Shown here: positions 29,994 to 50,522 of the stretch, piece after piece
How the letters are laid out: every line of letters begins with the position of its first letter
Position numbering within the stretch: position 1 is the stretch's first letter
From: Symmachiella dynata
GTDB lineage: Bacteria; Planctomycetota; Planctomycetia; Planctomycetales; Planctomycetaceae
NCBI RefSeq assembly: GCF_007747995.1
Contig: NZ_CP036276.1
Coordinates: forward strand, 3,153,001 to 3,217,000
Direction: 5' to 3'
Length of the DNA: 64,000 nt
Notes under the pieces: model-generated
What the model was told of the DNA's origin: nothing
The model's input: only the letters and a program-made list of their open reading frames with translations
Database searches by the model: none
Translations under genes and position numbers: made by a program

Positions 29994-30872
29994 CTAAAAC
30001 TCCGGCGGCAGTGCGCTGGCTTCGTTGAGGTTTTCGCCGATGGAAAGTAACCAGCGTTCGCCGCGGGCTTCGAGGATCACGTCGGTCCGGTGAATTTCCG
30101 CCACGGTGCCGGTGAACTGGCCCACATCCAGCATCTCGCCTTGCTTGAGTCGGATCACTCGGTTTTCTGAACCCAATGTGAACCAGGCTTCCGTGTCGCC
30201 TTGTTCCGTGACAGCGGTCAGCCGGGTGAAATTGGCAGGGTCTGCTTCGCCACCGATCCCAAAGATGTTGCGTCTCACGATCGGCGAAAAGTAGGTGATG
30301 TCCTTGTCTGCGAATTCTTCTGCGATCGCCGTTGGCAAGTCTTGGGCATAGGCCGAGTTGGTCATGGCGACAGCTTCAATCGAAATCGATAGGTCCAGCA
30401 ATCCGGCGCTGCGCAGCGGCGTAATGCCGATCGACTGGATCTGATGCAGAAAATCGGCGCGATAGAATTCGTACAAGAAGGCTGTGAACTGTTGCAATGT
30501 CCCACGGGCACGGACGGAGAAGGTGAGCGAATGATAAATGCCGTTTCGCAACACAGGGGTGCCGGAGTCAAAACTGGGGGTTGTCAGTCGGGAGCGATCC
30601 ACGACATCAACCAACCATTCTTGATAGACCGTCCGCGCCGTACTGGGATCGGCTGGCAGCGACTGCTCTTCCCATTCGGCAATACGGCGGCTGGTTTTCT
30701 TGGCGCGGTTTAAAGTCTTCTTCGCTTTGGTGCGATCCTTTTCCAGTTTTTCAATCCGCTTTTGTTGCGCGTCAAAGGGTTCGTCGATCAACGATGTCTT
30801 GAGCTTCTCGCCGCCGAAAAAGAGGACGATCACACCCAAGAGGCCGTATAACACTAATTGGCGAGTTTCCAT
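29994..30872 (-). CDS. type II secretion inner-membrane protein, GspM/PilO-like with C-terminal PilP/GspC-like part
   Basis: 292 aa. One N-terminal membrane helix (LVLYGLLGVIVLFFGGEKL), a coiled coil (about 38-75, QQKRIEKLEKDRTKAKKTLNRAKK) and a PilO/GspM-like ferredoxin-type domain (about 85-180, SLTFSVRARGTLQQFTAFLYEFYRA). The C-terminal part (about 195-290: SPIVRRNIFGIG, WFTLGSENRVIRLKQGEMLDVGQFTGTVAEI) looks like a GspC/PilP homology region. The ATG overlaps the stop of the upstream gene (TAATG). Completes the inner-membrane platform of the operon. Confidence 0.75.
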   Translation of the reverse strand: METRQLVLYGLLGVIVLFFGGEKLKTSLIDEPFDAQQKRIEKLEKDRTKAKKTLNRAKKTSRRIAEWEEQSLPADPSTARTVYQEWLVDVVDRSRLTTPSFDSGTPVLRNGIYHSLTFSVRARGTLQQFTAFLYEFYRADFLHQIQSIGITPLRSAGLLDLSISIEAVAMTNSAYAQDLPTAIAEEFADKDITYFSPIVRRNIFGIGGEADPANFTRLTAVTEQGDTEAWFTLGSENRVIRLKQGEMLDVGQFTGTVAEIHRTDVILEARGERWLLSIGENLNEASALPPEF

Positions 30873-32744: not shown

Positions 32745-34331
32745 CTACTCCGTATCGGCGGAATCAGCGGTGGATGGTGTGGGTAGGTCTTCTAGCTGCT
32801 CGCCGCGAAGCATCTCCATGTCAAATCCGCGTCCCAGCAGCCGAAGGTTCTTATAGTATACCTGACGTGGTACCTCGCCGGTAGCATCAATGACCACTTC
32901 GGCGCGGGCTGAAGGGGTCCCGCTGTCAAAATAGCCGACCACCTGTGCACGGTAGACGTCACCGCCGCACGTCAAATAGGGCATCAATTCTCGCATCGTC
33001 TCTAGGCTGACCAAGTTTTGTGCCAACAGCCACGTCGGATGCCGCCGGCTGGGTTCTTCCGTCCCACCCTGCAAGCCGCGACCTGCCAAAATCTGTTCGA
33101 CTTGGGTCTCAGGCATTCCCGGGACAGCGGCAATCACCTCGCGGGGGGCGGTGTTGATATTAATCCGTCCCACCAACACGGGCGACTTGTCGACCGTAAC
33201 TTGATCCAGCAAGAGCGGTAAACTTGTCCGCAGCGAATCGGGCGAACTGGTGAACGGACTGAGAAAAACCTCGGGGGGGCCGGACGCTTGCGGGATCGAG
33301 ACCCGCGCATCGATCAGGTCCAGCAGACTGGTGATTTTGAATTTCGATGGCAGATTCAAATCCAACGTGACTGTTGCATTGGCTTGTCCTTCCTCACTGC
33401 CTGTGTAAGGACCGAATTGTCGATAAGCAATCAGGAACCGCGCCCAAGGTTCGTTTAGTGCCCCCGATAATGTTTGATAAAGCAATTGCAGATCGGGATG
33501 GTTGATGTCAATCCGCGGGGGTCCATCGGGACGGGTATTGCGTTCGCCGCTATACAGCGTCAAATATGCCGCCCAAGGCAGACCGGAAGAACTTCCGCTG
33601 TGCCCCAAACCACCGGCGACTGAATCGATTTCGTCTTGCTCGACGAAGTGATTTTGATTCGTGTCGCTGCCGAAGAGCAGTTCGCGCGTGACTCCTTTGA
33701 CCAGCAGGAGTTCCTCTAACGATTCGACAGGCCCGTTGCGGGGCTGCATGGGGGGATCTAGCCCGCTGTAGTAATCTCGTTCGGCTCCGCTGCTGCGTGG
33801 AGTGGAATCTGCATCCAACCAATCCATGATGGCATCGGCTACCGAGTCGGTCATTTCGGGCAATTGCATCAGGGCGTTGCGCCCCGAATCTGGAATGGCC
33901 TCTTCCCACTGCGCGAGCACTGAGAGGTTGATGCGTGCTGATTCGTTTTCGGCGCCATACCGTATGCCGATGATATTTCCTTCTTCGATTCGAGGAACCA
34001 ACACGCTGAACCGCACCACGGCCTGGGTGCCCGGTTCGAGGTAGAGGACTTGCCCTTTGAACAAATCAGGATTGTCGAACAAACCACCCATGGCTATGCG
34101 CCCTGGAGGACCTTGGGCCAAGACCGCTTTGAGTAGTTCCTCTCCCGAAGCGGCTGCATAGTCGACATGGATTTCATCGACGTTTAAGTGAGCGGCTTTG
34201 TTTTCGGTGTACATCACCGCCACAAAACCAAATCCAGCCAGGCTGATCATCACTAAGACGATCGTCACCACGATCAAGATCATTCCCTGCCGCGGGGACG
34301 ATGAGTGTTGAGCCGGTCGCTGGGAAATCAT
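32745..34331 (-). CDS. gspK: type II secretion minor pseudopilin GspK-like
   Basis: 528 aa. N-terminal prepilin-like helix after a basic leader (RQGMILIVVTIVLVMISLAGFGFVAVMYTE). The large globular part has GspK features, including a helix-hairpin-helix-like end (GRININTAPREVIAAVPGMPETQVEQILAGR). GspK caps the pseudopilus tip in T2SS. ATGA overlap (4 nt) with the upstream GspJ-like gene. Family size is 300-350 aa in proteobacteria; this one is longer. Confidence 0.85.
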   Translation of the reverse strand: MISQRPAQHSSSPRQGMILIVVTIVLVMISLAGFGFVAVMYTENKAAHLNVDEIHVDYAAASGEELLKAVLAQGPPGRIAMGGLFDNPDLFKGQVLYLEPGTQAVVRFSVLVPRIEEGNIIGIRYGAENESARINLSVLAQWEEAIPDSGRNALMQLPEMTDSVADAIMDWLDADSTPRSSGAERDYYSGLDPPMQPRNGPVESLEELLLVKGVTRELLFGSDTNQNHFVEQDEIDSVAGGLGHSGSSSGLPWAAYLTLYSGERNTRPDGPPRIDINHPDLQLLYQTLSGALNEPWARFLIAYRQFGPYTGSEEGQANATVTLDLNLPSKFKITSLLDLIDARVSIPQASGPPEVFLSPFTSSPDSLRTSLPLLLDQVTVDKSPVLVGRININTAPREVIAAVPGMPETQVEQILAGRGLQGGTEEPSRRHPTWLLAQNLVSLETMRELMPYLTCGGDVYRAQVVGYFDSGTPSARAEVVIDATGEVPRQVYYKNLRLLGRGFDMEMLRGEQLEDLPTPSTADSADTE

Positions 34332-35404
34332 GGCGTCCCTCCCGGCAGTTCCTGGCTATCGGAAGCGGGAAATCCCAATCCTCCGCTGCTAGAGTGCGAT
34401 CCTTTGAGGCCGCCGGGGAGATAAATCAAAATGCGCTGCTGCGGATTCTGGTTTTCTTCCGGGTCGATGAAGTTGGAGCCCACTTCGTTATCCAATACCA
34501 ACTCTTCGGGTTCGGATGACGAATCGATTGCGGTTTCCTCATTCTCATCCGCATTGAGGTCTTCGGGGTCGTGCAATTCCAGGATGATTTCCACGGCCGA
34601 TGGCAACGTTTTGCTTTGCAAACTGTCCCAGGATGTCTGCCAGCGGCCGTTGCCGAAGTAGCGGATTTTCAGTTCAGAAATCTCCGGCACCCACATCATG
34701 GAATCGTCGATCACGATTTCCTCGCTACTGCCCACATCGGGCGAGTCGGCGATTCCAAATTCGGAGGCAGCGGCGAACTCACGGTCGGAGAGTGCGGTTT
34801 GCCAATCCAAGTCGCGGCGCAATAATCCCGGCGGCGGCCCGTGGTCCAGCGGGGACTGTTCGCGCATCTCGTTGAATGTATAGAGCACGGTGCGCAATTC
34901 CGGCGCGAGTGATGTCGTCGGTTCCGTGAAGTCTACCTGCAAATCCGAGGCGGACGGGTCGTTGGGGGAGACCGCGGGAACTTGCAAAGTCACGATCGCC
35001 AGCGATTGGGAGGTTCCCACAATTCCAAATCGCGGTAAGGGGGAGGACTCGGATGAGGAAGAAATGGTAGCGGCTGCCTCTGTCTCGCCATCGGGAGTAA
35101 GTTCGGAGGACGTCGCATCAGTGCCGAACGTCATCACGTTCGAGGAGACATCGGGGATTTCAGCAATCTGAATCGCGCCCCGCAGGTCGTCACTGAGTTG
35201 TTGTTTCAATGCACGCAACAACTGCGCGCGTTCTGTGCGGGCCGGTCCCGACTCGAACAACCGAATGTAGGTGCCAAACAGATTCCACAAGCCGACCATT
35301 AAGACGGCGGACAGAATTGTAACCAGCAGCACCTCCATCAATGTGAATCCACTACGAGTCGTGGAACGGGGGCGGCGGGGCAGATTGGCGGGGATGCGTC
35401 TCAT
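34328..35404 (-). CDS. gspJ: type II secretion pseudopilin GspJ-like
   Basis: 358 aa. The prepilin signal RSTTRSGFTLMEVLLVTILSAV is preceded by a basic leader and has G^FTLME with Glu5. The globular domain has Ser/Glu-rich insertions (SSSSESSPLPRF; EEPEELVLDNEVG). ATG at 35404 overlaps the GspI stop (ATGA); the frame is open to 35482 but the overlap decides this start. Confidence 0.87.
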   Translation of the reverse strand: MRRIPANLPRRPRSTTRSGFTLMEVLLVTILSAVLMVGLWNLFGTYIRLFESGPARTERAQLLRALKQQLSDDLRGAIQIAEIPDVSSNVMTFGTDATSSELTPDGETEAAATISSSSESSPLPRFGIVGTSQSLAIVTLQVPAVSPNDPSASDLQVDFTEPTTSLAPELRTVLYTFNEMREQSPLDHGPPPGLLRRDLDWQTALSDREFAAASEFGIADSPDVGSSEEIVIDDSMMWVPEISELKIRYFGNGRWQTSWDSLQSKTLPSAVEIILELHDPEDLNADENEETAIDSSSEPEELVLDNEVGSNFIDPEENQNPQQRILIYLPGGLKGSHSSSGGLGFPASDSQELPGGTP

Positions 35405-35865
35405 GGTGAGATGGCCCCTGCTGCAGAGGAGGATCCCGGCGCGGTCGATCCAAACTGTGCGATGCTTGGGTCCAACATCCAACGGACAAGCGTAACCGAG
35501 ACCTTTTTTTTATCTTCAGTCGGTGCCGTTGCCAAGCCGGCTAAGTCCTCCGGTGCACGTGTGACAGTGACCGACAACGCCACAACACCGGGCTGCTCAA
35601 GTGGTAGCAATTCCTGAGAGATCACCCAGTCGGGTGAGTTGGGCAGCGGTTCCTCTTCCAGCGTTTCAGCAGGAGCAATTCCCGCGAGGATTTCCGTAAT
35701 GCGGGCTTCGCAGAGCAGTTGAGCGGCAGCCAAGTCCTCAGCGGTTCGGGCGTGTTTCGCACCGATGGAGGCCAGTCGCCCCAAGACGACCACGCCTCCC
35801 AGCAGGATGCTCATCGCGAGTATGACTTCCATTAATGAAAATCCCTCGCGGCGAACGTTGGTCAT
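35401..35865 (-). CDS. gspI: type II secretion pseudopilin GspI-like
   Basis: 154 aa. Prepilin N-terminus MTNVRREGFSLMEVILAMSILLGG (G^FSLME). After the helix, LCEARITEILAG and a short C-terminal beta region consistent with GspI size. ATGA overlaps with both the upstream (GspH) and downstream (GspJ) genes show tight translational coupling. Confidence 0.88.
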   Translation of the reverse strand: MTNVRREGFSLMEVILAMSILLGGVVVLGRLASIGAKHARTAEDLAAAQLLCEARITEILAGIAPAETLEEEPLPNSPDWVISQELLPLEQPGVVALSVTVTRAPEDLAGLATAPTEDKKKVSVTLVRWMLDPSIAQFGSTAPGSSSAAGAISP

Positions 35866-36509
35866 TCTGGGACCTCAACCTTTTTCAAATCGCCTACCTT
35901 AGCGGAACCGGTTAAGCCTCGTAGCGTCACCATGATGAGGTGCCCATCTTCATTTTGCAATGTGAATTGGGCGTTGGCAGTGCGACCGTTGGGGAAAAAG
36001 ACAATCGGTGCCGACCACTCTTCGGAACGGGAATCTGACAGAGTGTCGACCGCTTCGACGGTTTGAGTTTCCTCGAAAGCCAGGGAGGAATAACCCTCTT
36101 CTTGGTTCTCCGTCTGGCCACCGAATACGACGCCTTCGGGCAGTTCCAATTCGAAAATCGGCAGTGCCGCTTCCGCATCTTCATCTTCGGTGACGGTTTG
36201 CTCACCTTCGTCATTGAGGGCCGAGACAGGAGCGACTTCAAAATGCCCCGTTCCCAATTGGTAGCGGAACTGGTACGCCACGCCATTTTCCATGGCGGTC
36301 AGCCGGGCCTTGGCCAATTCCGAGCGAAGCTGCTTGGCTCCACTGCGCAATTGGCTTTTACCCAGTCCCCCGCTAATTGCCGGCCATCCCGATCCTACCA
36401 GGGAAACCACAATTGCCAGGACAACCAGCATTTCCTGAAGCGTCGTTCCCCGACGGTTCTGACGCCCATTTTTGGTTGTTTTTCGTCTTGTCGCCAACAT
36501 CGTTTTCAT
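35862..36509 (-). CDS. gspH: type II secretion pseudopilin GspH-like
   Basis: 215 aa. N-terminus has a basic leader and prepilin-like helix NRRGTTLQEMLVVLAIVVSLVG; the residue after the cleavage Gly is Thr rather than Phe/Met (G^TTLQE), but Glu5 is kept. Acidic insertions (DEDAEAALP) and a C-terminal beta domain (WSAPIVFFPNGRTANAQF) with a GspH-like end. ATG at 36509. Confidence 0.83.
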   Translation of the reverse strand: MKTMLATRRKTTKNGRQNRRGTTLQEMLVVLAIVVSLVGSGWPAISGGLGKSQLRSGAKQLRSELAKARLTAMENGVAYQFRYQLGTGHFEVAPVSALNDEGEQTVTEDEDAEAALPIFELELPEGVVFGGQTENQEEGYSSLAFEETQTVEAVDTLSDSRSEEWSAPIVFFPNGRTANAQFTLQNEDGHLIMVTLRGLTGSAKVGDLKKVEVPE

Positions 36510-36569: not shown

Positions 36570-37070
36570 TTACTCCTCAGTCGAGGTTTCTTCGCCCTCT
36601 TCGCCTTCTTCTTTCGTCCAGTTCGTGATGTCGTCGTCAGTGTTATCTTCGCCATCAGGACCGTACGACCAAATGTCAGGGAAATCGCCCTTACCATGCT
36701 CAGGGGGAAACTCGTACTGATAATCGTTACCCCAGGGATCTTTAGGAATTTCCGACTTACTGATGTAAGGACCATCCCAGTTGGACGTCCCTTCTTCTTC
36801 GTCGGCCGGAGCTTCGACCAAGGCTACAAGACCTTCCTCAGTCGACGGATAGGAGCGTGTGTCCAGGTTGTATTGCTCCAAGGAACCCCGAAACATGCCG
36901 ATTTGGGTCTTGGTGCTGCTAATGTCCGCCTTCTCTCGGCTGCCCAGAATACGGGGACCAACCATTGACATCAGGAGAACCAGAATTGCCAGAACGACCA
37001 GCATTTCGATTAATGTAAAACCACCGCGTTGTTGCGGGTTTCTTTTTGTCTGTTGAATCCGTCTCATCAT
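36570..37070 (-). CDS. gspG: type II secretion major pseudopilin GspG
   Basis: 166 aa. The prepilin signal QQRGGFTLIEMLVVLAILVLLMS has the expected cleavage Gly and Glu5. Then MVGPRILGSREKADISSTKTQIG and the C-terminal calcium-site-like region YPSTEEGLVALVE...WDGPYISKSEIPKDPWGNDYQYE, all typical of GspG. The tail is unusually acidic (GEEGEETSTEE). GGAG lies just before the first ATG. Confidence 0.93.
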   Translation of the reverse strand: MMRRIQQTKRNPQQRGGFTLIEMLVVLAILVLLMSMVGPRILGSREKADISSTKTQIGMFRGSLEQYNLDTRSYPSTEEGLVALVEAPADEEEGTSNWDGPYISKSEIPKDPWGNDYQYEFPPEHGKGDFPDIWSYGPDGEDNTDDDITNWTKEEGEEGEETSTEE

Positions 37071-37145: not shown

Positions 37146-38363
37146 TTACATCGTTGCGCTCATGTCGAATACCGGCAGCAATAAAGCCACCAGTACAAAC
37201 AAAATCACCGTGCCCATGACCATCAACATGGTCGGTTCGACGAGCCGTACCATGATGTCGATCTGACGTCCGATTTTGCGGTCGATACCGTCCGCGACAT
37301 TGATTAACACGTTCTCTAAGTTGTTCGATTCTTCGGCGATCTTGATCATGGCCATCACCGGTTTGGGAATCAGCCCACATTCGCCCAGTGGCTGTGACAG
37401 TGTGTCGCCTGAAGAAATATTCTCCGCCGAAGCTTTGATCGCATCGGCCAACACCAAATTCCCTGTTGAGTCTTGGCTGATCTCCAAGGCTCGTAGCAGC
37501 GGGACTCCATTTCGCAGCAGCGTGCCCAACACGCGGCAAAACCGCGAAACAGCTGACCCCAGAAAAATGCTGCCCGCAACGGGGATCTTTAATTTCCAGC
37601 GATCCACTAAATGTCGGCCAGCTGGTTTGGCCAACTGTTTCTTCACGTAACTCCCTAAGGCGAACAGTCCGGCAATTAAGAAGATGCCCCACCGCCCGAG
37701 GAAATCACTCAGTGCCAACAACACCACGGTGGGAGTCGGCAATCCGCCTTGCTTCTCCAGTTGTTTAAACAGTTCCGCAAATTTCGGCACGAAGAACACA
37801 ATCAACACGACTGTGACCACGAAACCAGCAGCTGCCAGGAATGCCGGATAAGCCATCGCCCCTTTGACGCGGCTTTTCATTTCTTCCTGCAGTTCCAAAA
37901 AGTCAGCGGTCCGCTTGAGTGCGTCTTCCAAAAATGCCCCTTCGGAACCGGCACGGACCATGCTGACCGTCAACTCACCGAACACCTCAGGATGTTGGGC
38001 AAACGCCTCGTCCAACGGAGCCCCTTCGACGACTTGGTCGTGAATCGCCGTGAGGACTTCTTTCATCCGCTCGTGGGCACATTGCTCAGACAGTAACTTG
38101 AGCGAATTGAGCAGCGGTACGCCGTTTTCCAAGAGGTCCGACAACTGCGTCAGCGTTGAGGCCAAGACTTCCGCCTTGATCTTCCGGCCCATGGACAACT
38201 TGAAGTCAAAGAGCGGCTTGGCCTTTTCTGTGCTGTCTACACGAACCGGAAACAATGCGCGCTCAGCGAGCGTATTGAGCGCTTCGCGGCGGCTGCCGGC
38301 AGTGATGGAACCCACCACGTCTTCGCCGGTCATGTTTCGGGCTGTATAGGCAAACTCAGGCAT
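37146..38363 (-). CDS. gspF: type II secretion inner-membrane platform protein GspF
   Basis: 405 aa. Two T2SSF domains, each with membrane helices: about residues 60-190 (LASTLTQLSDLLENGVPLLNSLKLL) and 270-390 (VSRFCRVLGTLLRNGVPLLRALEI), the last helix LMVMGTVILFVLVALLLPVF. Platform protein that couples the ATPase to pseudopilus assembly in the inner membrane. Located between gspE and gspG with 62 and 75 nt gaps. Confidence 0.94.
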   Translation of the reverse strand: MPEFAYTARNMTGEDVVGSITAGSRREALNTLAERALFPVRVDSTEKAKPLFDFKLSMGRKIKAEVLASTLTQLSDLLENGVPLLNSLKLLSEQCAHERMKEVLTAIHDQVVEGAPLDEAFAQHPEVFGELTVSMVRAGSEGAFLEDALKRTADFLELQEEMKSRVKGAMAYPAFLAAAGFVVTVVLIVFFVPKFAELFKQLEKQGGLPTPTVVLLALSDFLGRWGIFLIAGLFALGSYVKKQLAKPAGRHLVDRWKLKIPVAGSIFLGSAVSRFCRVLGTLLRNGVPLLRALEISQDSTGNLVLADAIKASAENISSGDTLSQPLGECGLIPKPVMAMIKIAEESNNLENVLINVADGIDRKIGRQIDIMVRLVEPTMLMVMGTVILFVLVALLLPVFDMSATM

Positions 38364-38425: not shown

Positions 38426-40120
38426 TTAGTCTTCTTTACTCACACGCAGGACTTCATCCACTGAGGTCCGGCCTTCGAGCACTTTTTTCCATCCGTTGTG
38501 TCGTAGTGATTGCATGCCGGCTTTGATCGCCGCTTTTTTGATAATCGTTGACGACATCCGCTCTGTTGCTAAATTGCGGATTTCCTCATTGGCACGCAGC
38601 AGTTCGTACAAACCAACTCGCCCGGAGTACCCCGCGTTACGGCAAGCGCGACAACCAACAGGTCGAAAGATTTGAGCCCCTTGTTCCCGCATCAGGTCCA
38701 TCGGGAAATCGTCCGGCAATTCGTCTTTGCTCGGTTCGTAAGCTTCGCAGCATTCGCGGCAGAGGGTTCGCACCAAACGTTGGGCCATCACGCCCTCGAC
38801 CGTACTGCTGACCAGAAACGGTTCGACACCCATGTCGACCAGACGCATGAATGCGCCGGCGGCGTCGTTGGTGTGCAAGGTGCTGAAGACCAAGTGGCCA
38901 GTCAGCGAGGCTTGAATCGCGTTTTCGGCGGTTTCTTGGTCCCGAATTTCACCCACGAGCACCACGTCCGGATCGTGCCGCAAGATCGCCCGCAAACTGG
39001 CGGCGAAAGTCAGCCCGACTTTGTGATGCACCTGAATCTGGTTGATCCCATCGAGTTGATATTCGATTGGATCCTCGGTGGTGATGATCTTGTTTTCTTC
39101 GTTCTTAATTTCGTTGAGCGCGCTGTAGAGTGTCGTCGTTTTTCCTGAACCGGTTGGCCCAGTGACGAGAATAATTCCGTGCGGCAGTGTGATCAGCTTT
39201 TGGAATTGGTTGTAGATGTCTTCATCCATGCCGATGCCCTTCAAGGAGAAGTTCATCTTGTCCTTGTCGAGAACACGCATGACGACCCCTTCGCCATGCA
39301 GCATGGGGATCATGGAAACACGAATATCGACTTCGCGGCCCGAAACACGCAGCTTGATCCGCCCATCTTGCGGCACGCGTTTTTCGGCGATGTTCATCTT
39401 GGCCATGATTTTCAACCGGCTGAGGATCGCCGCTTGAAAACGATTGAGTTCCGGCGGGAGCGGTTGACGCTGTAGCACACCGTCGATGCGATACCGCAGC
39501 TTCATGCCCTTGGCTTGGCATTCCAAGTGAATATCACTCGTGCGAGCTTCAACAGCTTCGCTGAGGATTTCGTTAACGAGCCGGACGACCGAGGCTTCTT
39601 GAGCCATCGCCGCGTCTTCCGACTGGTCCCATTCCAATTCGTCAAGAACTTCGATGCCGCCCGCGTCTTCACGCTGCGCCATCAAGCCATCGATCGTTTC
39701 GGCACCGACACCCAGATTCGATTTGATCAGCTTGTTCAACTCGTCAGGAGCCGCCACAACCGGCGTGACGCCGACTCCGGTCGATGCCCCGACTGCATCC
39801 AACGCGTGCAGGTCAAATGGGTCTTTCGTGGCGACGATGATCGAGCCATCCTGGCGGCCGATCGGAAAGATGCTGTAGCGATGAATCAATTTGACATCGA
39901 ACTCGTGGAGCAGCGACAAATCGACGTCGTAATTTGCGAGATCGACGAGTTCCAACCCGAGCGTGGCGCAAACAGCCTGCAATGCCGCATCTTCGCTGGG
40001 TAAACCCAACTCAGCGGCAGCGCGATCCAGTCGTCCGTCGTCGGCTTGCGCTTCTCGAGCGATGCGCAGCTGACGAGCGTCGAGGACCAACGGCTCTTTG
40101 GCGGTGTCTAGGGATGTCAT
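38426..40120 (-). CDS. gspE: type II secretion assembly ATPase GspE
   Basis: 564 aa. N-terminal MshEN/T2SSE-N region (about 45-140: LGLELVDLANYDVDLSLLHEFDVKL), then the ATPase with Walker A GPTGSGKTTTLYS (about 329-341), Asp box EDPIEYQLDGINQIQ, Walker B-region DPDVVLVGEIRD and His box STLHTNDA. A CxxC...CxxC zinc site follows (CRECCEAYEPS ... CRACRNAGY). ATG at 40120 has no clear Shine-Dalgarno sequence. First gene of the E-F-G-H-I-J-K-L-M operon. Confidence 0.95.
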   Translation of the reverse strand: MTSLDTAKEPLVLDARQLRIAREAQADDGRLDRAAAELGLPSEDAALQAVCATLGLELVDLANYDVDLSLLHEFDVKLIHRYSIFPIGRQDGSIIVATKDPFDLHALDAVGASTGVGVTPVVAAPDELNKLIKSNLGVGAETIDGLMAQREDAGGIEVLDELEWDQSEDAAMAQEASVVRLVNEILSEAVEARTSDIHLECQAKGMKLRYRIDGVLQRQPLPPELNRFQAAILSRLKIMAKMNIAEKRVPQDGRIKLRVSGREVDIRVSMIPMLHGEGVVMRVLDKDKMNFSLKGIGMDEDIYNQFQKLITLPHGIILVTGPTGSGKTTTLYSALNEIKNEENKIITTEDPIEYQLDGINQIQVHHKVGLTFAASLRAILRHDPDVVLVGEIRDQETAENAIQASLTGHLVFSTLHTNDAAGAFMRLVDMGVEPFLVSSTVEGVMAQRLVRTLCRECCEAYEPSKDELPDDFPMDLMREQGAQIFRPVGCRACRNAGYSGRVGLYELLRANEEIRNLATERMSSTIIKKAAIKAGMQSLRHNGWKKVLEGRTSVDEVLRVSKED

Positions 40121-40766
40121 TGTATTTGGTGGGTAATATGGAGGTAGGACAAAATCAGCGCGGGGCCGAATTTGTTATCAACCAACGAAAACTGCAATCG
40201 ACATCAATGGGTCTGACATCAACGAACGCAAAATCCGCGGGTAGTCTTGGCGTGTTACAGCCTGCCAAACCAGTGACCGTTGTGGTGGGTCACATGGCTT
40301 CGCTACTTCAAGGTAGGAAAACTGGTGGGTTGGTACGGGTCCGCTCTTACCGTCTAGGCCACGGTGATTGAGGACTCGTCCCAGTTCAGTTTAGGTGGGG
40401 AATAACGTATGCGTCTTAGTTTATGCCAACTTCTCATAACAGTCAATAGCCAGCTTCCCCACTCCAGCGATACACGATAGTGACGAGACTCAGATGACGC
40501 AAGCTGCTTTTCGTTAAGAACTTATGAAATGCAGCTGCTTTTGAAAAAACGATCAAATGTCTGTTTTTCTCAGCGGACACCTCAGGGGGGACCAACGCGC
40601 TGTGCTCTATCATTTAGGCAAATCATCCCATAGAACGGTGGCGAAAGCCTTTTGATATGTCAATTGTTTGATGTATCGATGCCCCTATTCCTGGCTCACC
40701 GTTCCTAACCGTGATAAACTCGCTAGAGGGCCGTTTGTGACAATTGACTGTACGCATTTTCGGATT
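40121..40766. other. noncoding divergent intergenic region
   Basis: About 645 nt between the type II secretion operon (minus) and the EF-hand gene (plus). It must carry promoters for both. A 54-codon plus-strand frame at 40207-40371 has no ribosome binding site and no recognised domain, so it was not called. No tRNA or strong hairpin was noticed. Confidence 0.6.
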
Positions 40767-41626: not shown

Positions 41627-44600
41627 CTAGCGACCTCGTCTTCTTCGTCGTGAACGCGATCGACTACCTTCGCCGGTGAGCATATCCAGCGAATTCTCTA
41701 AGCTGCGGATGTTGAGGCTTTTAAGTTTGATGACTTTTAACCGCCGGGTGGAGTCGTCATTGGCCGCCGTGTCCATTTGCTGCACGAGTTCTTTGATTTC
41801 CTCGAACAATGACGTCGGAGCCATCACCACCAGCGAGTTGGTCCGTTCGTCGACTTCGACAGTGAGCAACGGGGCATTACTAGCCGCGTTGACGCGTTGA
41901 ATTGCCACAGCGACATCTTGCGACACACCGGCCGGCACCGGGATGGGCGGTGCGCCGCCACCGTTTTTTAATGCCGATTGATAGATGGAACGGATCACAT
42001 CTTCGATCCGCGAAGCTTCGGTGTTTTTCACCAGAATCAAGCGGGGACGATTGGCGGAGAGCATTTCTGGACTGTCTTCAGCATCGAGCACCTGGAGCAG
42101 CTCTTCGATGGTATCCCGGTCATGACGGTTGCCGTGCACGATAATCGCATTCAGACGTTGGTCCGGAACGATGGTCACGTTGCTGCTGAACCGTGAACGC
42201 GATGAACCGCCCCGTCTGCCCCCGGTTTCGAAAAACTGTTGCAGTGTGGTGGCGGTCTGCACGGCGCTGGTGTATCGCAGGGAGAACACGACAAAGTTGT
42301 TGCCGCGTCCCCCGGTCCGTTTCGGCGACATCGCTCGTAACAGGGCTTCGAATTGGTCCAAGGCTTCTGGATCGTCCGAGGCAATCGTAATCCGGCCATC
42401 GCCCGGAGCGACAATCACCGGTAACACTGCAGGGTCTTCATCGGACTCAGCTTCAGGTTTGGTTGTCGATTTTTGCGGCGTTGCGGATTCCGCAGTCTGC
42501 TGTCGTAGCATCGGTCGTTTATTGTTTACGGTCGGCTTGGCGGATTTGTTCTGTGCAGGCCGTTGTGCAGGGACCTCTTCCGCAGGGACTGCAAATTGGG
42601 CCCCGTTTTTCTTGGCAGGTTTTGGCTTGGCCCCGCCGTTGCGCAATGATTTTGGCGATGAACGTCGCAAGCTGGGCATGACGGCCGACGGGGTGACGAC
42701 GCGGATGCTATTTTTGCGCAATTGCGGCCAAACCCGTTCGATTTCCCGAATCGCGGCGGCGGTGTCGCCCTGGAACGGAATCACGCGCATCCGCCCTCCT
42801 TTGCCGCTTTCGGCTTGGACCGCCAAACCGGTTTCTCCCATTTTGGATAACAACTCGCGAATCTCGGCCTGTTGCTCTTTTTTGGCGCGGACAAAAAGTT
42901 GCTGGGTGGCATTGTCCGAATCGACGACCGGGGCGTTGGGGTCGTCAAAATCGAAGCCGCCGAATAAGCGATCGATCGACAACTCCGCTGTGAACGGTTC
43001 AATCACATCGAGTTGATACACTTCCAGCACCCGCTCGTCGGTATCCATTTGTTCGAGTGTTTGTTGAATCATCTTATGTTGTTCGGGACGGGCGATGGCA
43101 GCAATCTGCCGCCCGCGGCGATCCAACGACAATTTGATTTTGGGGATCTGCTGGCTAAAGGCGTTTTCCAGGATTTCCATCGCTGTACGGGAATCGACAT
43201 TTTCCAAACGATACAGTTGTAGCGTCGCCAACGGATCGGCCGAGGCGGCTCTTTCGACTTCTTGAACCATATCGGCGATTCGTTGTTGTGTTTTCTCGGG
43301 AGCCAATGCCAGGATGCTGTTGTTTTCCCTGTCATAGGAAACATCGACGTCTCGATCACGGCGAAACAGCGTTCGCAACGTGGTCTGCAAACTGCGTCCG
43401 TCGGCGGCGTTGAGCGGATAGACCTTCAGTCCCGGAACGCCTAGGGCGGCTCCGTCTCCGTCCATGGCGTCGACGGTGGCTTTGATTTTTGCATGGTCCG
43501 CTTCCGAAGCGCTAACGACAAGACTGTTGTTCTCGGTGTCGACAGCGGCGTCGGCATTCGGTGCCAGTGACCTGAGCACACGCAGCGCGGCTTGGGCATC
43601 GGCATTTTCAAAACGGTAGACTTTGGGAACCATCGGCACGCTCTGTTTCTCAGCGTTTTCGATAAATTCTTTAATCTTCGCTTGTTCCGCCGCCGGTGCG
43701 ACGGCCACGACCGTACCATTTTGTCTGTCGAAAGTGACCTGTACATCGGGACGCAAGCGGTACATCAATTGAATCGCCTGTGCCAAGGTGTTGACTTGTG
43801 CGTTTTGCACAGCGTAGGACTGCAGTTGCTGACCGGAGCCCTCTGCGTCCTCGCGGTCCATTTCCTGAATCGTGGCGGCAATTTTTTCATGGTCCCCCTC
43901 GGTGGCTGTGACCACCAAACTATGGCTACCTTGATCGACCGCCATTTGCGCCTTGGGAGTTAACACACGGAGAACCGACAATGCAGTGTTGGGATCTGCG
44001 ATACTAAAACGATACACCTGCGCTCGCCGCGATTGCCCCCCCTTTTCGACCTCTTCGATAAAGTGTTGAATCTTCTCGTGCTGTTCGGGACGGGCAAAAG
44101 CCAGGATCGTGTCGTTCAGAGAATCGAGTGACAGACGAATATCGGGTTGCAGGGCGAAATTCGTTTGCAGCATGTTGAGGAGATTGTTCGGCTCGGCCGC
44201 TTTGACCGGATACGAACGCAATACGGAGCCTCTTCCACCGGCCGGTTCCTCTTCCATTTTGGCAATCGTCGATTTGATCAACGCATGTTCTTCGGGTGTA
44301 CCTGTCACCACGAGACTGCGACTCGCGTTGTCGACCGCCATTTGGACTTTGGGAATCAACGTCCGCAAAATGCCGCTGGCAGCGGTCGGATCGGCGGAGC
44401 GGAACCGGTAGACCTCAGCCGTACGCACTTTGCCTTTGTCATCGACTTCGGCGATAAAGGCGGCAATTTTTTTATGCTGTGCTTCGGTCGCCAATGCGAC
44501 GATGGTTTCGTTCTTGTAATCCGCCGACAACCGAATATCCGGCTGCAAGGCAAAGTTGGTCTGCAGCATATTGAGCAGGTTGCCAGGTTCCGCCGACTTG

Positions 44601-47600
44601 ATCGTATAGGCCTTCAACACCGCGCCGTTTTCGTCATTTCCATCGGCGTCTATCTTGGCGATCGTTTCTGCGATGGCTGCGTGATCCGCTTCGATGGCAT
44701 TGATGACGATGCTGCGATTGCGGTTGTCGACTGTCATTTGAGCGCGGGGAGCGACCATGCGTAGAATCGCGATGGCGGCATTCGGGTCAGCTGTGCGAAA
44801 ACGATAGACCTCTGAGGTGGCCCCTTCGATATCTTTTTCGATGTCGGCAATCACTTCTTCAATTTTTTTCTGCTGCGCCGCATCGGCAAAGGCAATGATC
44901 GCACCGTTACGCGAATCATAAGACAAGCGGACCTCGGGGTGGCTGGCCAGCAGTTGTCCCACGACGCCGAAGGTTGTGCCTGGGTCGGCTTTTTTGACCT
45001 GGTGAGACTTGAGAAACGCCGCATTTTCGGCATCAGGCTCGACATCGAACTTGGCGATGGCCTCTTTCATTTTTTGATGATCGGCCGCGGTCGCCACGAT
45101 CACCAAGCTCCGTTGCGGGTTATCAACAGTGATCGACGCCCGCGGTACGAGTGTCCGTAAAAAGGCCGCGACCACATTCGGGTCGGCTGTGTGCAGACGA
45201 TACATCTCCGGCGTGGCAGCGACAAAGTTTTTTTCGACATCGGCAATTGTCTCGGCAATCGTTTTATGCTGATCGGGATGCGCGATGGCAATCACTGCAT
45301 TATTTCGCCCGTCGTAATAAAGTTGCATGTCGGCCTGCCCGGACATCAGATTGGCGACAATGCCATATACCGTGCCGGCGTCAGAACGCTCTAGCGGATA
45401 CGACTTTAAGTAGGCCGAGTCTTCGCCCGCGCGTGCGACGTCGATCTTCGCGATTTCCGCTTTGAATTTTTCATGATCTTCTGGCGATGCGGTAATCACC
45501 AACGACCGGTCGCGGACGTTGGGGACCATCGGCGATGAAGGTGAAATCGGCCTTACGATCGCCATCAAAATGTTGGGATCCACGTGCTTCAATTGATAGA
45601 CGTGTGCCGTTGGTTTACCCATCTTGGGTAGTTTTTCCTTGGCCTCTTCGATGGTCGATTTGAGTTCTTCCAGATGCTTCGGTTTGGCGCGAACGATCAA
45701 CCGTTGGCCGTCATTGGAGGTGATGAACTGTGTTTCGCTGCGGAGGACTGGATTGATGAGCTGGATGATCGCGGCTGAATCGGTGCCTTGCAGTTCGAAG
45801 ACCGCCAATTCGCGGGCATCGTTGCTATCCGCGTCTTTTTCAATCTGCTTGATGATTTCAGCAACCTCGGTGTGCTCTTCCGGCTTGGCCCAGACGACGA
45901 CACGCGGCGGATTGCCGCCAATCATGACCCGCGCCTGTGGAACGGCCATTCGCAGCACTTGTCGCGCTGAAGTCGCAATGGCAGACTCGACAGGATAGAT
46001 GACCATCTTGCCGCCGTTTCGCTGTTTCATATTGGCCGCAATTTCATCCATTGCCGATTGGATTTCCTGATGCCGGTCAGGTGTTGTCCAAACCAGAATG
46101 GAGTTCGAAGCGGAGTCGTCATCGATTCGGGCATCGGGGAACAGTTGCCGCAGCCCGCGCATGAGATTTGCCGAATCACTTTCGCCGGCTGGATAGACAA
46201 CCAGTTTCGGCTTGCGTTTCGGATCCAGCCCCGCCAAAACTTGCTTCAAAATCGCGTCGACCTTTTGGTGGTCGGCTTTACGGCCCCAGGCGATGATCGC
46301 TTTGGAGGTCGTGTCGTTGGTGAAAGTGACATCCGGCAGTTGTTGCTGCAACAAATTGATCACCGCGGCGGCATCGGAATCGGGGACCGGATAGACTTTG
46401 TAGGATTCCTGGACGTCCGCAGCGGCGCCGGAGTCGATTTTGTCGACCACATCCTGAATTTTTTCGTGCTCACTTGGGGGAGCCCAGATGAGCAATTTTT
46501 TGGTCTTCGCATCCAACACAATTTTGATGTTGGGAAAGATGCTTTGCATCACGGTCAGCGTGTTGGGCGCATCCGCGTTTTTGATCTGATAGGGCACCAG
46601 CACAAATTTGTCACCCGCGGGGGTCTCCCGTCGCAGCTTGGAGATGATGTCGGCCAGCTTCTCGTGCTGGCTTTTCTTGGCCCACACCGCCAATTCACCC
46701 GGTTCAGCATCGGTGATGATCCGCATGCCGGGCATTTCGCTTTGCACCGTATCCAAAATCGATTGAAAACGAGTCCGCTGTGCGGCGGTCACCGGATAGA
46801 TTTCTAACGAGAACTTTTCTGCAGGGGCAGCGGAGTCGATGACACGTTTGACAGATTCGTTGATCACATCGTGATCGGCGGCCGTGGCGACGACCATCAA
46901 CCGTTTGCCTTCGAGGTCATACGAGACTTGCGATTGCGGCGCCAGTTGCTGCAAGACCGCCAACAGGCTGGCGGGTGGGGCTTGTTCGAGCGGAATAAAC
47001 CGCAGCGTGCGTTCATTGGGGCCGGGCGTTTCGGGTTGAAGTTGTTCCAACGTCGCGCGGATGCCTTGTTGGTCTTCGGGGATGGCCACGGCAATCAGGC
47101 TCCGCGTTTGCGGGTCAACCGTCAGACGCGCCGCCGGGAAAAGTCCCTGCAACAATGTCTGCGTCGCAGAGGGATCGGCTTTGGTGAGTCGATAGACTTC
47201 GATTTGCGGCGACATTTCCGCCGTGCCGCCACCGACCTTGGTTAAGGCCGATTTCAACATCTGATGTTCTTTGGGAGTCCCCCAGGCGATCAGCCGTGTG
47301 GTCTTGGGGTCCACCGATAACCGCATGGCCGGCAACAGTGTCTGCAATGTGGGCATGAGACTTGTCGCGTCCGCGCCTTGGATGGCGTATGCCTCAAAGC
47401 GGGGTTGATCGGCTTCGGGAACTTCGGCGAGGACCTTATCCAACGTGGCTTTGAGGTCGGCGTGCCGCTGGGGTCCCGCCCAGACAAGCAGGCGATTTCC
47501 TTCGGCATCGGGGATAACACGCAGTTCCGGGTACAGGGTCTGCAGGACGCTTGTGGTCTGCGGTTGTTGAGCGGCCTTGACTGGATAGCTGGTCAGCGTG

Positions 47601-49513
47601 AACTTTTCTTCATCCGGCACATCCCGCTTTAATTTCTCTAGGATTGTCCGGAGCGCCTCGTGTTCTTTGGATTTCGCCCACACGGCCAGTTCCCCCGGCT
47701 CGGCATCGGTGATAATCCGAATCCCCGGCAGGTCGCCGGTTATTGTTCCAACGACTGCATCAAATCGTTTGCGCTGGGCGGGCGTGACGGGATAAATCTC
47801 CAAACGCGGTTTTTCACCCTCGATGGGCATGGGGAACTTTTTGATCGTATCGGCAATCAAGGCGTGATCAGCCGGGATGGCGGTGACAATCAGTTTCTTT
47901 CCGTCAGCACGTATTTTTGCATTGGGAACCAACGCTTGCAGAACTTCCATCAAGCCGGTCGGAATGTTCACCTTGAAGGGATAGAACTGCAATTCCGGGG
48001 TATTAGCCCCCGGCTGCGTCGGTTGCAGTTGGTCCAACATCGCTTTCACAACCCGTTGGTCGTCCGGCACAGCGACGACGATCAAATTTCGAGATTGCGG
48101 GTCATACGAAATCCGGGCGTTGGGAACCAGAGTGGATAACAACGTCTGCGTCGATGTGGGATCCGCTTTTAATAATAGATAAGTCGCTAGCTGCGTTGTC
48201 TTGCCATTCGGCCCGTCTCCTCCCAGTTGGTCGAGAGACGACTTGATTTTGGCTTGTTCCTCGGGGGTTCCCCAAGCAATCAGGCGATTGTCTACCGGAT
48301 CAATCCGCATTTGCATTTCCGGTAAGACTAGCTTCAGCGATTCCAACAACTGCGTGTGGTCGCCCCGGGTAAGGGAATAGACTTCCAAACGGGGCATCGA
48401 TTCGGGCGGATTGTCGGTCTGTATTTTGTCCAACAGCGCTTTGACTGCCGTTTGCTGTGTAGGCGTGGCGAAAACGTTGATCTGACCAGCTTTGGCATCG
48501 GCAACGACTTTGATCCCAGTGATCAACTGATTGATCAGTTCCACAGCTGCACCGGCATCAGCGGATTTCGTGGCGTAGGTTCTCAGTTCCGGTTTTTCAG
48601 GGGGCGCGGGTTTGGGGGCTTTTTTGGGAGGCGCCGGTTCGGGAATGGAACCGATGACTGCGCCGATCGCCCGCATGTTGCCTGCGGTGGCTGTGACCAG
48701 GATTTGCTGCGTCTTGGGCAGCGGCACGCTTTTGCCTTGGTTTCCCAACAGCGGTGTAATTTCCGCGTTGACTTCCTCCGCATTCTTTTTACCCAACGGA
48801 AACATCACGCTGACGAATTCATGTTTGCCGCGATCTTCCAAGTCTTTTAAGTCGATCCGCGGAATGAGGTCTTGCGGAATACCTTCTTTCATATCGATCA
48901 CGATCAGCATGCGACCGCGCCGAATCAGCGTGAAGTCCTTGGTTAGCAAGACGCCGTTGAGTAGATCGATCGCTTCGGTCGGGGTGTATTCCTTGGTATC
49001 GGTGTAATTAAACGTCGCGGGCGGCGGGGCATCCATCACCAGCGATAGGTCCGCTTCGTTCGCAAACCACTGCAAAACCTCGGCCCAACGTTGAAATCGA
49101 AAATTGAAGCGGAGCTTGGGAACCGGGCGAATTTGGGCCAATTTCGCCCGTTGTTCCTCCGTAAGCAGGGCCGCAATGGTTCCATCTTGCTCGGCGGCAA
49201 TCTTGGCCTTGTCGGCGGCTTCGGCTTGGGAGAGCGCGTCGCTGCGTTTTTTGAGCAGTTCTTGGAGTTTCGTTTGCTGTTCAACTGTCAGATTTAACTG
49301 AGCAGCAACCTCAGGATCAGCCAGTTGAGCATAATCCAGCTTCGCCGCGGCCGGTTTTGCGGCAGCGGGGGGAGTCTTGGCAGCTGGAGTCTCGCTAGCA
49401 GGCGGCGCATCTTGAGCGATCGCAAGCGACGGGCAAATTCCGCAGAGTGCCGCAAGCAGCGACGCGCGGAACAGATGTCGACGACAAGGCGAGAAGTTTT
49501 GATGTAACGTCAC
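41627..49513 (-). CDS. giant secreted protein: secretin N0 domain plus about 33 tandem secretin N1-like modules, no pore domain
   Basis: About 2,628 aa. Signal peptide LFRASLLAALCGICPSLAIA (cleavage before QDAPP), a helical LTVEQQTKLQELLKKR/LLTEEQRAKL region, then an N0-type domain (RWAEVLQWFANEADLSLVMD ... LIRRGRMLIVIDM). About 33 modules of about 65 residues follow, each roughly 'YpV..AdP......Lq.l.P.ari..D.....LiVwAtpe.HekI...i..l', the KH-like fold of secretin N1/N2 domains. The end is a low-complexity linker and an Arg/Ser-rich tail (SRSRSRRRRRGR). No C-terminal secretin (beta-barrel) domain is present. GTG at 49513 has TGGAG 8 nt upstream; the frame extends to 49654. Probably exported to the periplasm; a role with the neighbouring secretion machinery is inference. 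Confidence 0.9.
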   Translation of the reverse strand: MTLHQNFSPCRRHLFRASLLAALCGICPSLAIAQDAPPASETPAAKTPPAAAKPAAAKLDYAQLADPEVAAQLNLTVEQQTKLQELLKKRSDALSQAEAADKAKIAAEQDGTIAALLTEEQRAKLAQIRPVPKLRFNFRFQRWAEVLQWFANEADLSLVMDAPPPATFNYTDTKEYTPTEAIDLLNGVLLTKDFTLIRRGRMLIVIDMKEGIPQDLIPRIDLKDLEDRGKHEFVSVMFPLGKKNAEEVNAEITPLLGNQGKSVPLPKTQQILVTATAGNMRAIGAVIGSIPEPAPPKKAPKPAPPEKPELRTYATKSADAGAAVELINQLITGIKVVADAKAGQINVFATPTQQTAVKALLDKIQTDNPPESMPRLEVYSLTRGDHTQLLESLKLVLPEMQMRIDPVDNRLIAWGTPEEQAKIKSSLDQLGGDGPNGKTTQLATYLLLKADPTSTQTLLSTLVPNARISYDPQSRNLIVVAVPDDQRVVKAMLDQLQPTQPGANTPELQFYPFKVNIPTGLMEVLQALVPNAKIRADGKKLIVTAIPADHALIADTIKKFPMPIEGEKPRLEIYPVTPAQRKRFDAVVGTITGDLPGIRIITDAEPGELAVWAKSKEHEALRTILEKLKRDVPDEEKFTLTSYPVKAAQQPQTTSVLQTLYPELRVIPDAEGNRLLVWAGPQRHADLKATLDKVLAEVPEADQPRFEAYAIQGADATSLMPTLQTLLPAMRLSVDPKTTRLIAWGTPKEHQMLKSALTKVGGGTAEMSPQIEVYRLTKADPSATQTLLQGLFPAARLTVDPQTRSLIAVAIPEDQQGIRATLEQLQPETPGPNERTLRFIPLEQAPPASLLAVLQQLAPQSQVSYDLEGKRLMVVATAADHDVINESVKRVIDSAAPAEKFSLEIYPVTAAQRTRFQSILDTVQSEMPGMRIITDAEPGELAVWAKKSQHEKLADIISKLRRETPAGDKFVLVPYQIKNADAPNTLTVMQSIFPNIKIVLDAKTKKLLIWAPPSEHEKIQDVVDKIDSGAAADVQESYKVYPVPDSDAAAVINLLQQQLPDVTFTNDTTSKAIIAWGRKADHQKVDAILKQVLAGLDPKRKPKLVVYPAGESDSANLMRGLRQLFPDARIDDDSASNSILVWTTPDRHQEIQSAMDEIAANMKQRNGGKMVIYPVESAIATSARQVLRMAVPQARVMIGGNPPRVVVWAKPEEHTEVAEIIKQIEKDADSNDARELAVFELQGTDSAAIIQLINPVLRSETQFITSNDGQRLIVRAKPKHLEELKSTIEEAKEKLPKMGKPTAHVYQLKHVDPNILMAIVRPISPSSPMVPNVRDRSLVITASPEDHEKFKAEIAKIDVARAGEDSAYLKSYPLERSDAGTVYGIVANLMSGQADMQLYYDGRNNAVIAIAHPDQHKTIAETIADVEKNFVAATPEMYRLHTADPNVVAAFLRTLVPRASITVDNPQRSLVIVATAADHQKMKEAIAKFDVEPDAENAAFLKSHQVKKADPGTTFGVVGQLLASHPEVRLSYDSRNGAIIAFADAAQQKKIEEVIADIEKDIEGATSEVYRFRTADPNAAIAILRMVAPRAQMTVDNRNRSIVINAIEADHAAIAETIAKIDADGNDENGAVLKAYTIKSAEPGNLLNMLQTNFALQPDIRLSADYKNETIVALATEAQHKKIAAFIAEVDDKGKVRTAEVYRFRSADPTAASGILRTLIPKVQMAVDNASRSLVVTGTPEEHALIKSTIAKMEEEPAGGRGSVLRSYPVKAAEPNNLLNMLQTNFALQPDIRLSLDSLNDTILAFARPEQHEKIQHFIEEVEKGGQSRRAQVYRFSIADPNTALSVLRVLTPKAQMAVDQGSHSLVVTATEGDHEKIAATIQEMDREDAEGSGQQLQSYAVQNAQVNTLAQAIQLMYRLRPDVQVTFDRQNGTVVAVAPAAEQAKIKEFIENAEKQSVPMVPKVYRFENADAQAALRVLRSLAPNADAAVDTENNSLVVSASEADHAKIKATVDAMDGDGAALGVPGLKVYPLNAADGRSLQTTLRTLFRRDRDVDVSYDRENNSILALAPEKTQQRIADMVQEVERAASADPLATLQLYRLENVDSRTAMEILENAFSQQIPKIKLSLDRRGRQIAAIARPEQHKMIQQTLEQMDTDERVLEVYQLDVIEPFTAELSIDRLFGGFDFDDPNAPVVDSDNATQQLFVRAKKEQQAEIRELLSKMGETGLAVQAESGKGGRMRVIPFQGDTAAAIREIERVWPQLRKNSIRVVTPSAVMPSLRRSSPKSLRNGGAKPKPAKKNGAQFAVPAEEVPAQRPAQNKSAKPTVNNKRPMLRQQTAESATPQKSTTKPEAESDEDPAVLPVIVAPGDGRITIASDDPEALDQFEALLRAMSPKRTGGRGNNFVVFSLRYTSAVQTATTLQQFFETGGRRGGSSRSRFSSNVTIVPDQRLNAIIVHGNRHDRDTIEELLQVLDAEDSPEMLSANRPRLILVKNTEASRIEDVIRSIYQSALKNGGGAPPIPVPAGVSQDVAVAIQRVNAASNAPLLTVEVDERTNSLVVMAPTSLFEEIKELVQQMDTAANDDSTRRLKVIKLKSLNIRSLENSLDMLTGEGSRSRSRRRRRGR

Positions 49514-50522
49514 GGTCTTCACTCCAGTGCGATTCGATTGCGCAAACGGCGAACAGGGCCGATATTGCTGCTCGGAATGGATTCTCGGTGTGAGTTTCGG
49601 CGCGATTGCGCGGACGCAAGTTGAGTCCGGCCATCGGGATCGATTGATTGTCATCCTCTAAATTTCAAAATCGTCCTGAGGGACGACTCAGAAGTAGCGA
49701 GCAGTTGTGGCAAAACCAAAATGATCGCGACGTTCAGGATGCGGATTAGGTGGGCTAGGTAGGTGGGTTTTCTTTGGAGTTGTTTTCAAAACTCGGTCGC
49801 GCTGATTCCGGAAACATGCCTATCAAAGTGAACAAGACGCGTCAGCGGGCTTTGAAACCTCTCGTAATACAGTACACGCCTCGGAACTGTGGGTAAAGCG
49901 CGGATTCCAGGAAATCGGCGCAGAATCCCCGGCCTGTCCTCAGTCAACATTCGAGGGGTTGGCTTCAGGCGAGCTATCTGGTTGGACCCGCATGAGGTCG
50001 TTTGGCGGGGGTTTTGGCAATTCGTTGATATTCCTGGTTGACCGATGGTTTGCCGCATCCGCCTTTGAAGTTGATCGGCTTCGCAGCGGAATGACAAGAA
50101 TCTTTGGAGTGTGGTTTTTTGAAATCATTCCGTAACTCACGTTGTCGTCGAGCCTTGAGATGATTGTGGTGATGTGGTCCGGCAACATGAATAGACTTTG
50201 CCGATTTCGTGGAATTGTTTGCTTGACTCAACCTTTCCGTGACCTAGGTTTTTGTTGTGCCGGTAACAACGCAGGCGGAAATCAGGAGTGGCTGCAAAGC
50301 TGCTCACCACCTGTGTTGAACCAAAAGGCCGTCATTTATTTTGGGTGTAACCTCGCTGTGAGGTTTTAATTTGGGTGGCGGACTTTGAGAGGCGTTTGCA
50401 ACCGATGCGTCGGTTGCCGGGTTTTGCGCAAGCATCCACCCACCGGGCCAATCAGAGTTCGTAAGCTTGCGCCCCAGTTGTTCGCCAGAACGGCTGTGGC
50501 AAACCTGTAATGGGAGAATCCT
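49514..50522. other. noncoding region before the flp genes
   Basis: About 1 kb between the giant gene (minus) and flp1 (plus); the first 140 nt could belong to the giant gene if it starts at 49654. Contains repeat copy C (49780-49866), a small hairpin AACCTC/GAGGTT (50349-50365, followed by TTTTAATTT) and the hairpin GCAACCGA/TCGGTTGC (50398-50417). From about 50373 the sequence is the first copy of a leader that is repeated before flp2. No gene is supported here. Confidence 0.65.
49780..49866 (+). repeat. interspersed 92-bp palindromic-ended repeat, copy C (divergent)
   Basis: Begins TTGTTTTCAAAACTCGGTCG, keeps GACGCGTCAGCGGGCTTTGA and AACCTCTCGTAA at its end. The CTAGAACC start of the other copies is lost, and the arms are only partly complementary. 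Same length class and order as copies A, B, D and E. Confidence 0.7.

Follow-up and report, generated by a model that had tools for sequence, protein, structure and literature searches.

A giant pore-less array of secretin N-modules beside a type II secretion operon of Symmachiella dynata, a likely detached periplasmic stalk of a split secretin

The DNA analysed here (the window) is a stretch of 64,000 nucleotides from the planctomycete Symmachiella dynata, whose genome is a single contig of 7.77 Mb. On its minus strand lies a giant reading frame encoding a string of secretin N-domains, and downstream of it on the same strand are the genes of a type II secretion system (T2SS) in the order gspE, F, G, H, I, J, K, L, M, with gspH, I, L, and M assigned by position (Table 1). 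The first-pass annotation had described a single gene of about 2,630 codons at 41627-49513; the single gene stands; read from the first ATG, at 49654, it has 2,675 codons, 49513 being an in-frame GTG at codon 48 and an alternative start. The proposed N-terminal signal peptide agrees with a signal-peptide-like stretch, recognised by eye, downstream of this GTG. An EF-hand protein gene (40668-41495, plus strand) lies between the giant gene and gspE; with this opposite-strand gene and then gspE coming next, a frame error or an in-frame pore further on is ruled out. Similar EF-hand genes were seen in L053, L054, L057, L118, and L119 among 22 loci scanned, some without the full interval (G, L, and f numbers are handles for genomes, loci, and families). 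Directly past the T2SS operon is an M81/MlrC-type metallopeptidase gene (28391-29890, minus strand).

Table 1. Features of the giant gene and of the adjoining T2SS operon, in window positions.
Feature	Position	Strand	Basis or remark
Giant pore-less secretin-stalk gene (candidate)	41627..49654	-	2,675 codons; GTG alternative start 49513
Signal-peptide-like stretch, residues 58-81	49412..49483	-	by eye
N0 domain, residues 181-255	48890..49114	-	match to GspD N0 (4jtm_A)
First N1-like module, residues 278-338	48641..48823	-	hand count, model
28 regular N-modules, residues 357-2204	43043..48586	-	hand count, Pfam
Module with short insert, residues 2209-2274	42833..43030	-	hand count
Module split by about 106 low-complexity residues, residues 2289-2442	42329..42790	-	sequence, by eye
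Last two full modules, residues 2453-2628	41771..42298	-	match GspD positions upstream of its pore
Terminal half-module (strand and helix), residues 2638-2661, then Arg-rich tail	41672..41743	-	by eye
gspE (T2SS ATPase)	38426..40120	-	profile matches
gspF	37146..38363	-	profile matches
gspG, major pseudopilin	36570..37070	-	profile match
gspH-position gene	35862..36509	-	no Pfam match; by position
gspI-position gene	35401..35865	-	no Pfam match; by position
gspJ	34328..35482	-	profile match
gspK	32745..34331	-	profile matches
gspL-position gene	30872..32593	-	no Pfam match; by position
gspM-position gene	29994..30872	-	no Pfam match; by position

The modules are of the secretin N1 type, as had been proposed, and are not background: in an independent Pfam test the Secretin_N model (PF03958) scored 568.6 bits against a cut-off of 28.2, with 13 stretches individually passing 1e-3 and 29 passing E<=1. 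The reported absence of a secretin pore was borne out, PF00263 not being listed for the protein at E<=1, a level to be read with the fact that HMMER filters remove most matches above about 0.1. The GspD model TIGR02517 scored 346.2 bits, 5 bits short of its curated equivalog cut-off of 351.35, and its best stretch, residues 2452-2630, aligns to model positions 160-334 of 600. The Pfam model of the GspD N0 (PF21305) gave no listing for the giant protein. An AlphaFold2 model of residues 176-566, built with 41 aligned sequences (pLDDT 88.8), shows an N0 followed by four beta-alpha-beta-beta-alpha modules, and the N0-like domain of the earlier annotation is upheld by the structural match to the N0 of GspD (4jtm_A; Z 12.0, rmsd 2.0 over 80 residues). 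The top Foldseek matches of the model are PulD, XcpQ, and GspD structures; of nine profile matches to PDB sequences, eight are named type II or general secretion protein D and the ninth is DR_0774, a 'probable type IV piliation system protein'. The pTM of 0.55 makes the relative placement of the domains unreliable, so no length was taken from the model. An LTXXQ-like stretch precedes the N0 in a short pore-less protein of the same genome (L015 2393-6145, residues 90-168; PF07813, E 1e-4, just under the cut-off), and residues 106-175 of the giant protein appear similar by eye.

By hand count there are 33 full N-modules and one terminal half-module, in agreement with the roughly 33 consecutive modules first reported: one N1-like module after N0, 28 regular modules spaced at 63-69 residues, one with an insert, one interrupted, and two more. 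A module profile partly trained on the giant protein itself found 32 modules, and none in 100 shuffles. At lag 5, modules 2-6 and 7-11 are 35-59% identical, and a two-module unit underlies modules 16-26 (34-62% identity at lag 2). Judged from these identities, the array is the product of old duplications of two- and five-module units; Tandem Repeats Finder detected no DNA-level tandem repeats in the gene.

A cluster of Tad-like pilus genes lies upstream on the plus strand (51538-57189), encoding an A24 prepilin peptidase, RcpC/CpaB, a CpaC-type secretin, and a CpaE-like ATPase. The stalk might conceivably serve this Tad-type secretin (53778-55883, 4 kb from the start of the giant gene) and not the T2SS: the Tad genes begin 2-4 kb upstream, and a secretin without N-modules also adjoins the giant gene in G001 and G002. 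This is nonetheless very improbable, because in L118, L119, L141, and L164 gspE stands next to a long pore-less gene while the sequence fetched contains no secretin pore, the giant protein itself scores so highly with the GspD model, and the composite proteins described below are T2SS-linked.

The earlier statement that the neighbouring T2SS operon lacks a secretin gene is correct for the operon but not for the genome, where PF00263 matches at six places, among them the Tad-type secretin and an orphan gspD; a genome without a secretin is thereby ruled out. The orphan gspD (L018, about 120-124 kb) lies about 3 Mb from the giant gene. Its product of about 1,315 aa has 8 modules and a pore without a detectable N0; among the modules are a complete interrupted one and three additional ones. 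A second T2SS operon (L015, L016) encodes a 1,250-aa pore-less protein, gspE-M, and a 1,304-aa GspD with pore. A third pore-less N0 protein, of 980 aa and 5 modules, is encoded at L017 7492-10434 (G000:C1:6412491-6415433); no T2SS match was found near it on the fetched stretch, and its N0 groups with those of L070, L078, L091, and L092. At L019 5235-9378 (G000:C1:3757234-3761377), a 776-aa secretin is followed by a GspE-like ATPase; together with a PF08334 match at 3767635, these may represent a third T2SS-like or a type IV pilus system.

Homologues of the giant protein are widespread among related genomes. When 40 relatives were scanned with the window protein (P0001, E<=1e-20) and with T2SSG (PF08334, E<=1e-6), the giant protein was matched in 30. 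Homologues in genomes without a T2SS would speak against the proposed link; 28 genomes had both markers, two the homologue only, one T2SSG only, and nine neither. One of the two homologue-only genomes (G016) has gspE-F-G-H adjoining its pore-less gene; in the other (G021) no T2SS gene was found in the 15.6 kb fetched from the 19.6-kb contig that bears the homologue. A genome of the last group (G031) carries K-L-M beside a fused GspD, and neither marker is thus perfect. In a wider draw of 199 genomes an N0 profile matched 26, all with T2SSG (26/26), but as T2SSG is present in 168 of the 199 anyway, phylum-wide co-occurrence is weak evidence.

The closest orthologues are 2,672 aa (G001, 92% identity over the full length) and 2,632 aa (G002), with further long frames of 2,701 aa in G020, of at least 3,053 aa at a contig end in G022, and split across two contigs in G017; another, of 2,794 aa, is at L170 in Planctomycetes bacterium CA13, a cultured strain of the Pirellulales. 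A shorter pore-less protein, with 5-7 detected modules, occurs in many relatives. Among 51 complete named homologues of at least 700 aa, 28 have 3-6 detected modules and 23 have 16-34, and incomplete ones reach 47-48 (L116, L134); the module count is unusual beside the published secretins seen in part, but long arrays recur within Planctomycetota. Module number differs widely between relatives, and length may be tuned to the envelope. A truncated, decaying gspD could be imagined from the missing pore and the half-module at the end, but it is hardly credible given intact frames across families (the 51 named homologues and 31 complete frames of at least 700 aa among the relatives) and the full-length identity in G001. 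Planctomycete titles are carried by 79 of the 80 named loci. The other entry (L191) is a metagenome-assembled genome labelled Candidatus Nealsonbacteria that carries a planctomycete-type pore-less secretin gene, possibly through a binning error.

The giant gene is also found upstream of gspE in several relatives. Where at least 4.5 kb of downstream sequence was at hand, gspE lay within 3 kb on the same strand for 7 of 10 long-array genes (window 1/1, relatives 2/3, named loci 4/6); for short-array genes under the same requirement the figures were 13/23 among relatives and 0/22 among named loci, the latter speaking against a stalk role, as does the distance of about 770 kb between the giant gene and the T2SS operon in G020. 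In G036 and G032 the second T2SS operon also encodes, ahead of gspF, small pore-less N0 proteins of about 495 aa and 3 modules (L066 12756-14243 and L079 760-2250).

The pore-bearing proteins fall into several types. Among 45 pore-bearing frames with at least three modules, 19 had no detectable N0 and 17 had a short N0 (about 75 residues); the remainder were five fused giants, three truncated frames, and one type IV pilus-like secretin. Apart from the source genome, five relatives have a long array (G001, G002, G017, G020, and G022); their GspDs are N0-less like the orphan, which forms with them and with the GspDs of eight named long-array loci a 14-row clade (100/99). At 8 of 8 named loci holding both a long pore-less gene and a GspD of at least three modules, GspD was without a detectable N0 (one of these loci, L188, is cut at its 5' end). 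The GspD of short-array f1 systems also has the short N0, which forms a separate clade, and in the source genome (G000), G001, and G002 the second operon supplies an additional GspD of this short-N0 kind. That N0 is always missing from the pore gene is ruled out by these 17 of 45 frames.

These observations bear on whether the giant protein might be an accessory, GspD-derived duplicate beside a complete secretin, serving as an inner-membrane docking ring, a pseudopilus sheath, or an assembly factor. Such a role would suit the f1 systems, where GspD has its own N0, and the three extra modules and complete interrupted module of the window genome's GspD. It is quite unlikely, given that the GspDs of the long-array clade are without a detectable N0 and that array and pore are one protein in the single-chain forms. 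As to linkage, the gene order in G017 is giant (its C-terminal part, at a contig start)-E-F-G-H-I-J-K-L-M-GspD; four named loci (L146, L148, L190, L193) have a divergent pore-less/GspD pair about 220-317 bp apart, and in G032 an interval of 187 bp separates a short pore-less gene from an N0-less pore gene downstream. A point against the pairing is that in the source genome and its genus the proposed pore partner is unlinked to the operon.

Several genomes encode array and pore as a single chain. None of the 80 named loci has N0 and pore in one reading frame, a count open to bias because the search profile was derived from pore-less proteins and contig ends cut many frames short. In G032 (3,240 aa) and G036 (3,269 aa), one protein carries the pore together with N0, an array of 23-24 detected modules, and five more modules; its gene is placed after gspM, and no pore-less gene was found upstream of gspE in these operons within the roughly 9-10 kb fetched (L093, L094). 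Pfam finds 20 Secretin_N stretches and PF00263 in the G032 protein. The best matches in this protein run in consecutive order: window protein residues 175-327 to 131-286 (E 4e-25), window protein residues 2296-2657 to 1841-2151 (E 3.5e-23), and orphan GspD residues 520-860 to 2403-2751 (E 7e-72), after which comes the pore domain (2800-3022). Weaker second matches are out of order (E 1e-10 to 4e-13) because all modules are related. The same order is repeated in G036 and, more weakly, in the single chains of 2,175-2,328 aa of family f3 (G026, G031, G035). Still longer chains were found in two more distant families, at loci L214-L219, L227, and L228 (family f9) and L220 (G149, of another family): G041, G133, and G207 of f9 have single chains of 4,605-4,624 aa with N0, 45-47 detected modules, and pore, downstream of gspF, G, K, and L matches; the f9 member G072 has a 5,073-aa frame with N0 starting at residue 533; and the 4,213-aa protein of G149 has N0, 42 Secretin_N stretches (1,396.7 bits), and PF00263 (170 bits). 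In four other genomes of the phylum that were examined, the GspDs measure 813-1,218 aa and combine N0 and pore with 3-4 modules.

The N0 tree and the pore tree recover the same four groups, namely the long-array group, f5/f7/L185 beside it, the fused proteins with the f4/f6 splits, and the short-array f1 group; at least two changes on the pore tree are required to account for the fused state. The agreement is not independent proof, since the groups partly follow species descent and several group-defining forks of the N0 tree, a quick tree, have modest support of only 83-94% SH-aLRT.

The protein ends hint at where the two parts separate. Complete pore-less proteins appear by eye to end in the first half (strand, helix) of an N-module; 66 of 82 score above the 99th percentile of shuffled tails and 16 below it, a looser threshold being uninformative because 348 of 820 shuffled tails also match. 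The fused proteins of G032, G036, and G026 show by eye a first half, very roughly 130-200 low-complexity residues, and a second half (strand, strand, helix), and in the split pore proteins of G032 (1,079 aa) and G029 (925 aa) the second half-module is the first recognisable element after the leader. An AlphaFold2 model of the break region of L166 (8 sequences; pLDDT 63.9) gives strand-helix, a very-low-confidence stretch at 40-110, and strand-strand-helix. These patterns suggest that the break falls inside a loop of one N-module, although no more than 2 of the 14 pore proteins inspected show a clean half/half break. The pore protein of the window lineage keeps both halves, so the joint there must differ; that the terminal half of the giant protein completes the interrupted module of the orphan GspD is unsupported, the orphan having its own first half.

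On this comparative sequence evidence, the product of the giant gene is likely to be the periplasmic stalk of a type II secretion secretin that has been split, with the stalk detached from the pore. This genome has separate genes for the N-terminal secretin domains and for the pore, and the giant protein and the orphan GspD, the proposed pair, probably form one extremely long secretion tube, because some relatives carry both parts as one protein. The first-pass annotation had offered a ring stack or strut tied to the neighbouring T2SS, or an unrelated surface scaffold; gene order, the composite single-chain homologues, and the similar trees favour the former, and no support was found for the latter. 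In known secretins N0 is the inner-membrane-proximal domain, and ring height is about 2-3 nm. The giant protein would be exported via its signal peptide, and many copies, packed laterally, would build up a stack of about 34 coaxial rings, with N0 docking on the GspE-M platform at the inner membrane. Near the outer membrane, the top of this stack would meet the rings formed by the N-modules of the orphan GspD, which bears the pore. A pseudopilus inside the tube could then push substrates across an unusually wide periplasm; at the above ring height, the tube would have a length of the order of 100 nm.

A strut without rings is the alternative reading of the T2SS link, that is, a monomeric or low-copy elongated tether from the platform to the outer membrane or peptidoglycan. 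Thirty-three small domains with short linkers are plausible as a strut, the Arg-rich tail could bind the wall, and ring formation by the giant protein is itself a proposal. A strut is, however, unlikely: N-domains stack as rings in the characterised secretins, according to the excerpted text (PMC5745081), the closest structures to the giant protein are secretins, and in the single-chain relatives comparable arrays run on into a secretin that has the pore.

A secretin whose periplasmic part has 30-50 modules, in some cases encoded as two proteins, would be a concrete answer to how large machines cross the planctomycete periplasm. More broadly, and tentatively, the T2SSs of Planctomycetota may be tubes of about 20-50 rings, up to about 100 nm long, in which the number of N-modules acts as an evolvable ruler of periplasm width, the tube of the Pirellulales is separate and exchangeable, and some lineages re-form one N-module from its halves at the pore. 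The change in module number from species to species makes the ruler idea directly testable, and if the modules form rings, secretin stalks would be extended from the six rings described to about forty. According to the part of the source available, planctomycetes have an enlarged periplasm and crateriform structures of the outer membrane (PMC11131199).

The giant protein shares the N0/N-module fold and the sequence family of GspD (PulD, XcpQ, and E. coli/Vibrio GspD; TIGR02517, PF03958 with PF00263), its gene stands beside T2SS genes, and its C-terminal modules match GspD upstream of the pore. GspD normally has N1-N3 after N0, whereas the giant protein has about 33 N-modules and no pore domain. 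In the excerpts consulted, the secretin family averages 555+-151 aa (PMC4827864) and secretins are homo-oligomeric rings of 12-19 subunits (PMC5745081). Split secretins and six-ring secretins have been published; among the matches listed from the open-access literature, seen in part, there was no planctomycete giant secretin, no secretin of 16-50 modules, and no split T2SS secretin, so that neither the length of the giant protein nor a split T2SS case was found there. The chains of 4,200-4,600 aa with 42-47 modules likewise far exceed any published secretin encountered in those texts. As far as the available portions of the papers go, the split secretin of rhizobial and some P. syringae type III systems, RhcC1 (NolW)/RhcC2 (PMC3574062, PMC3973906), is similar in having two non-adjacent reading frames for an N-terminal part and a pore part. 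It belongs to type III secretion, whereas the neighbours of the giant gene are T2SS genes, and those portions do not mention an expansion of the N-terminal part, in contrast to the giant array and the unsplit giants of relatives seen here. The PilQ of Thermus thermophilus, with six stacked periplasmic rings spanning most of a wide periplasm (PMC5745081, as excerpted), has the most rings encountered in this partly seen literature and resembles the giant protein in its extra N-domains, which form a long tube in PilQ and would do so in the giant protein if its modules stack as proposed; PilQ, however, has its six rings and pore in one chain, whereas here 33 modules are separate from the pore and 42-47 accompany it in single-chain relatives.
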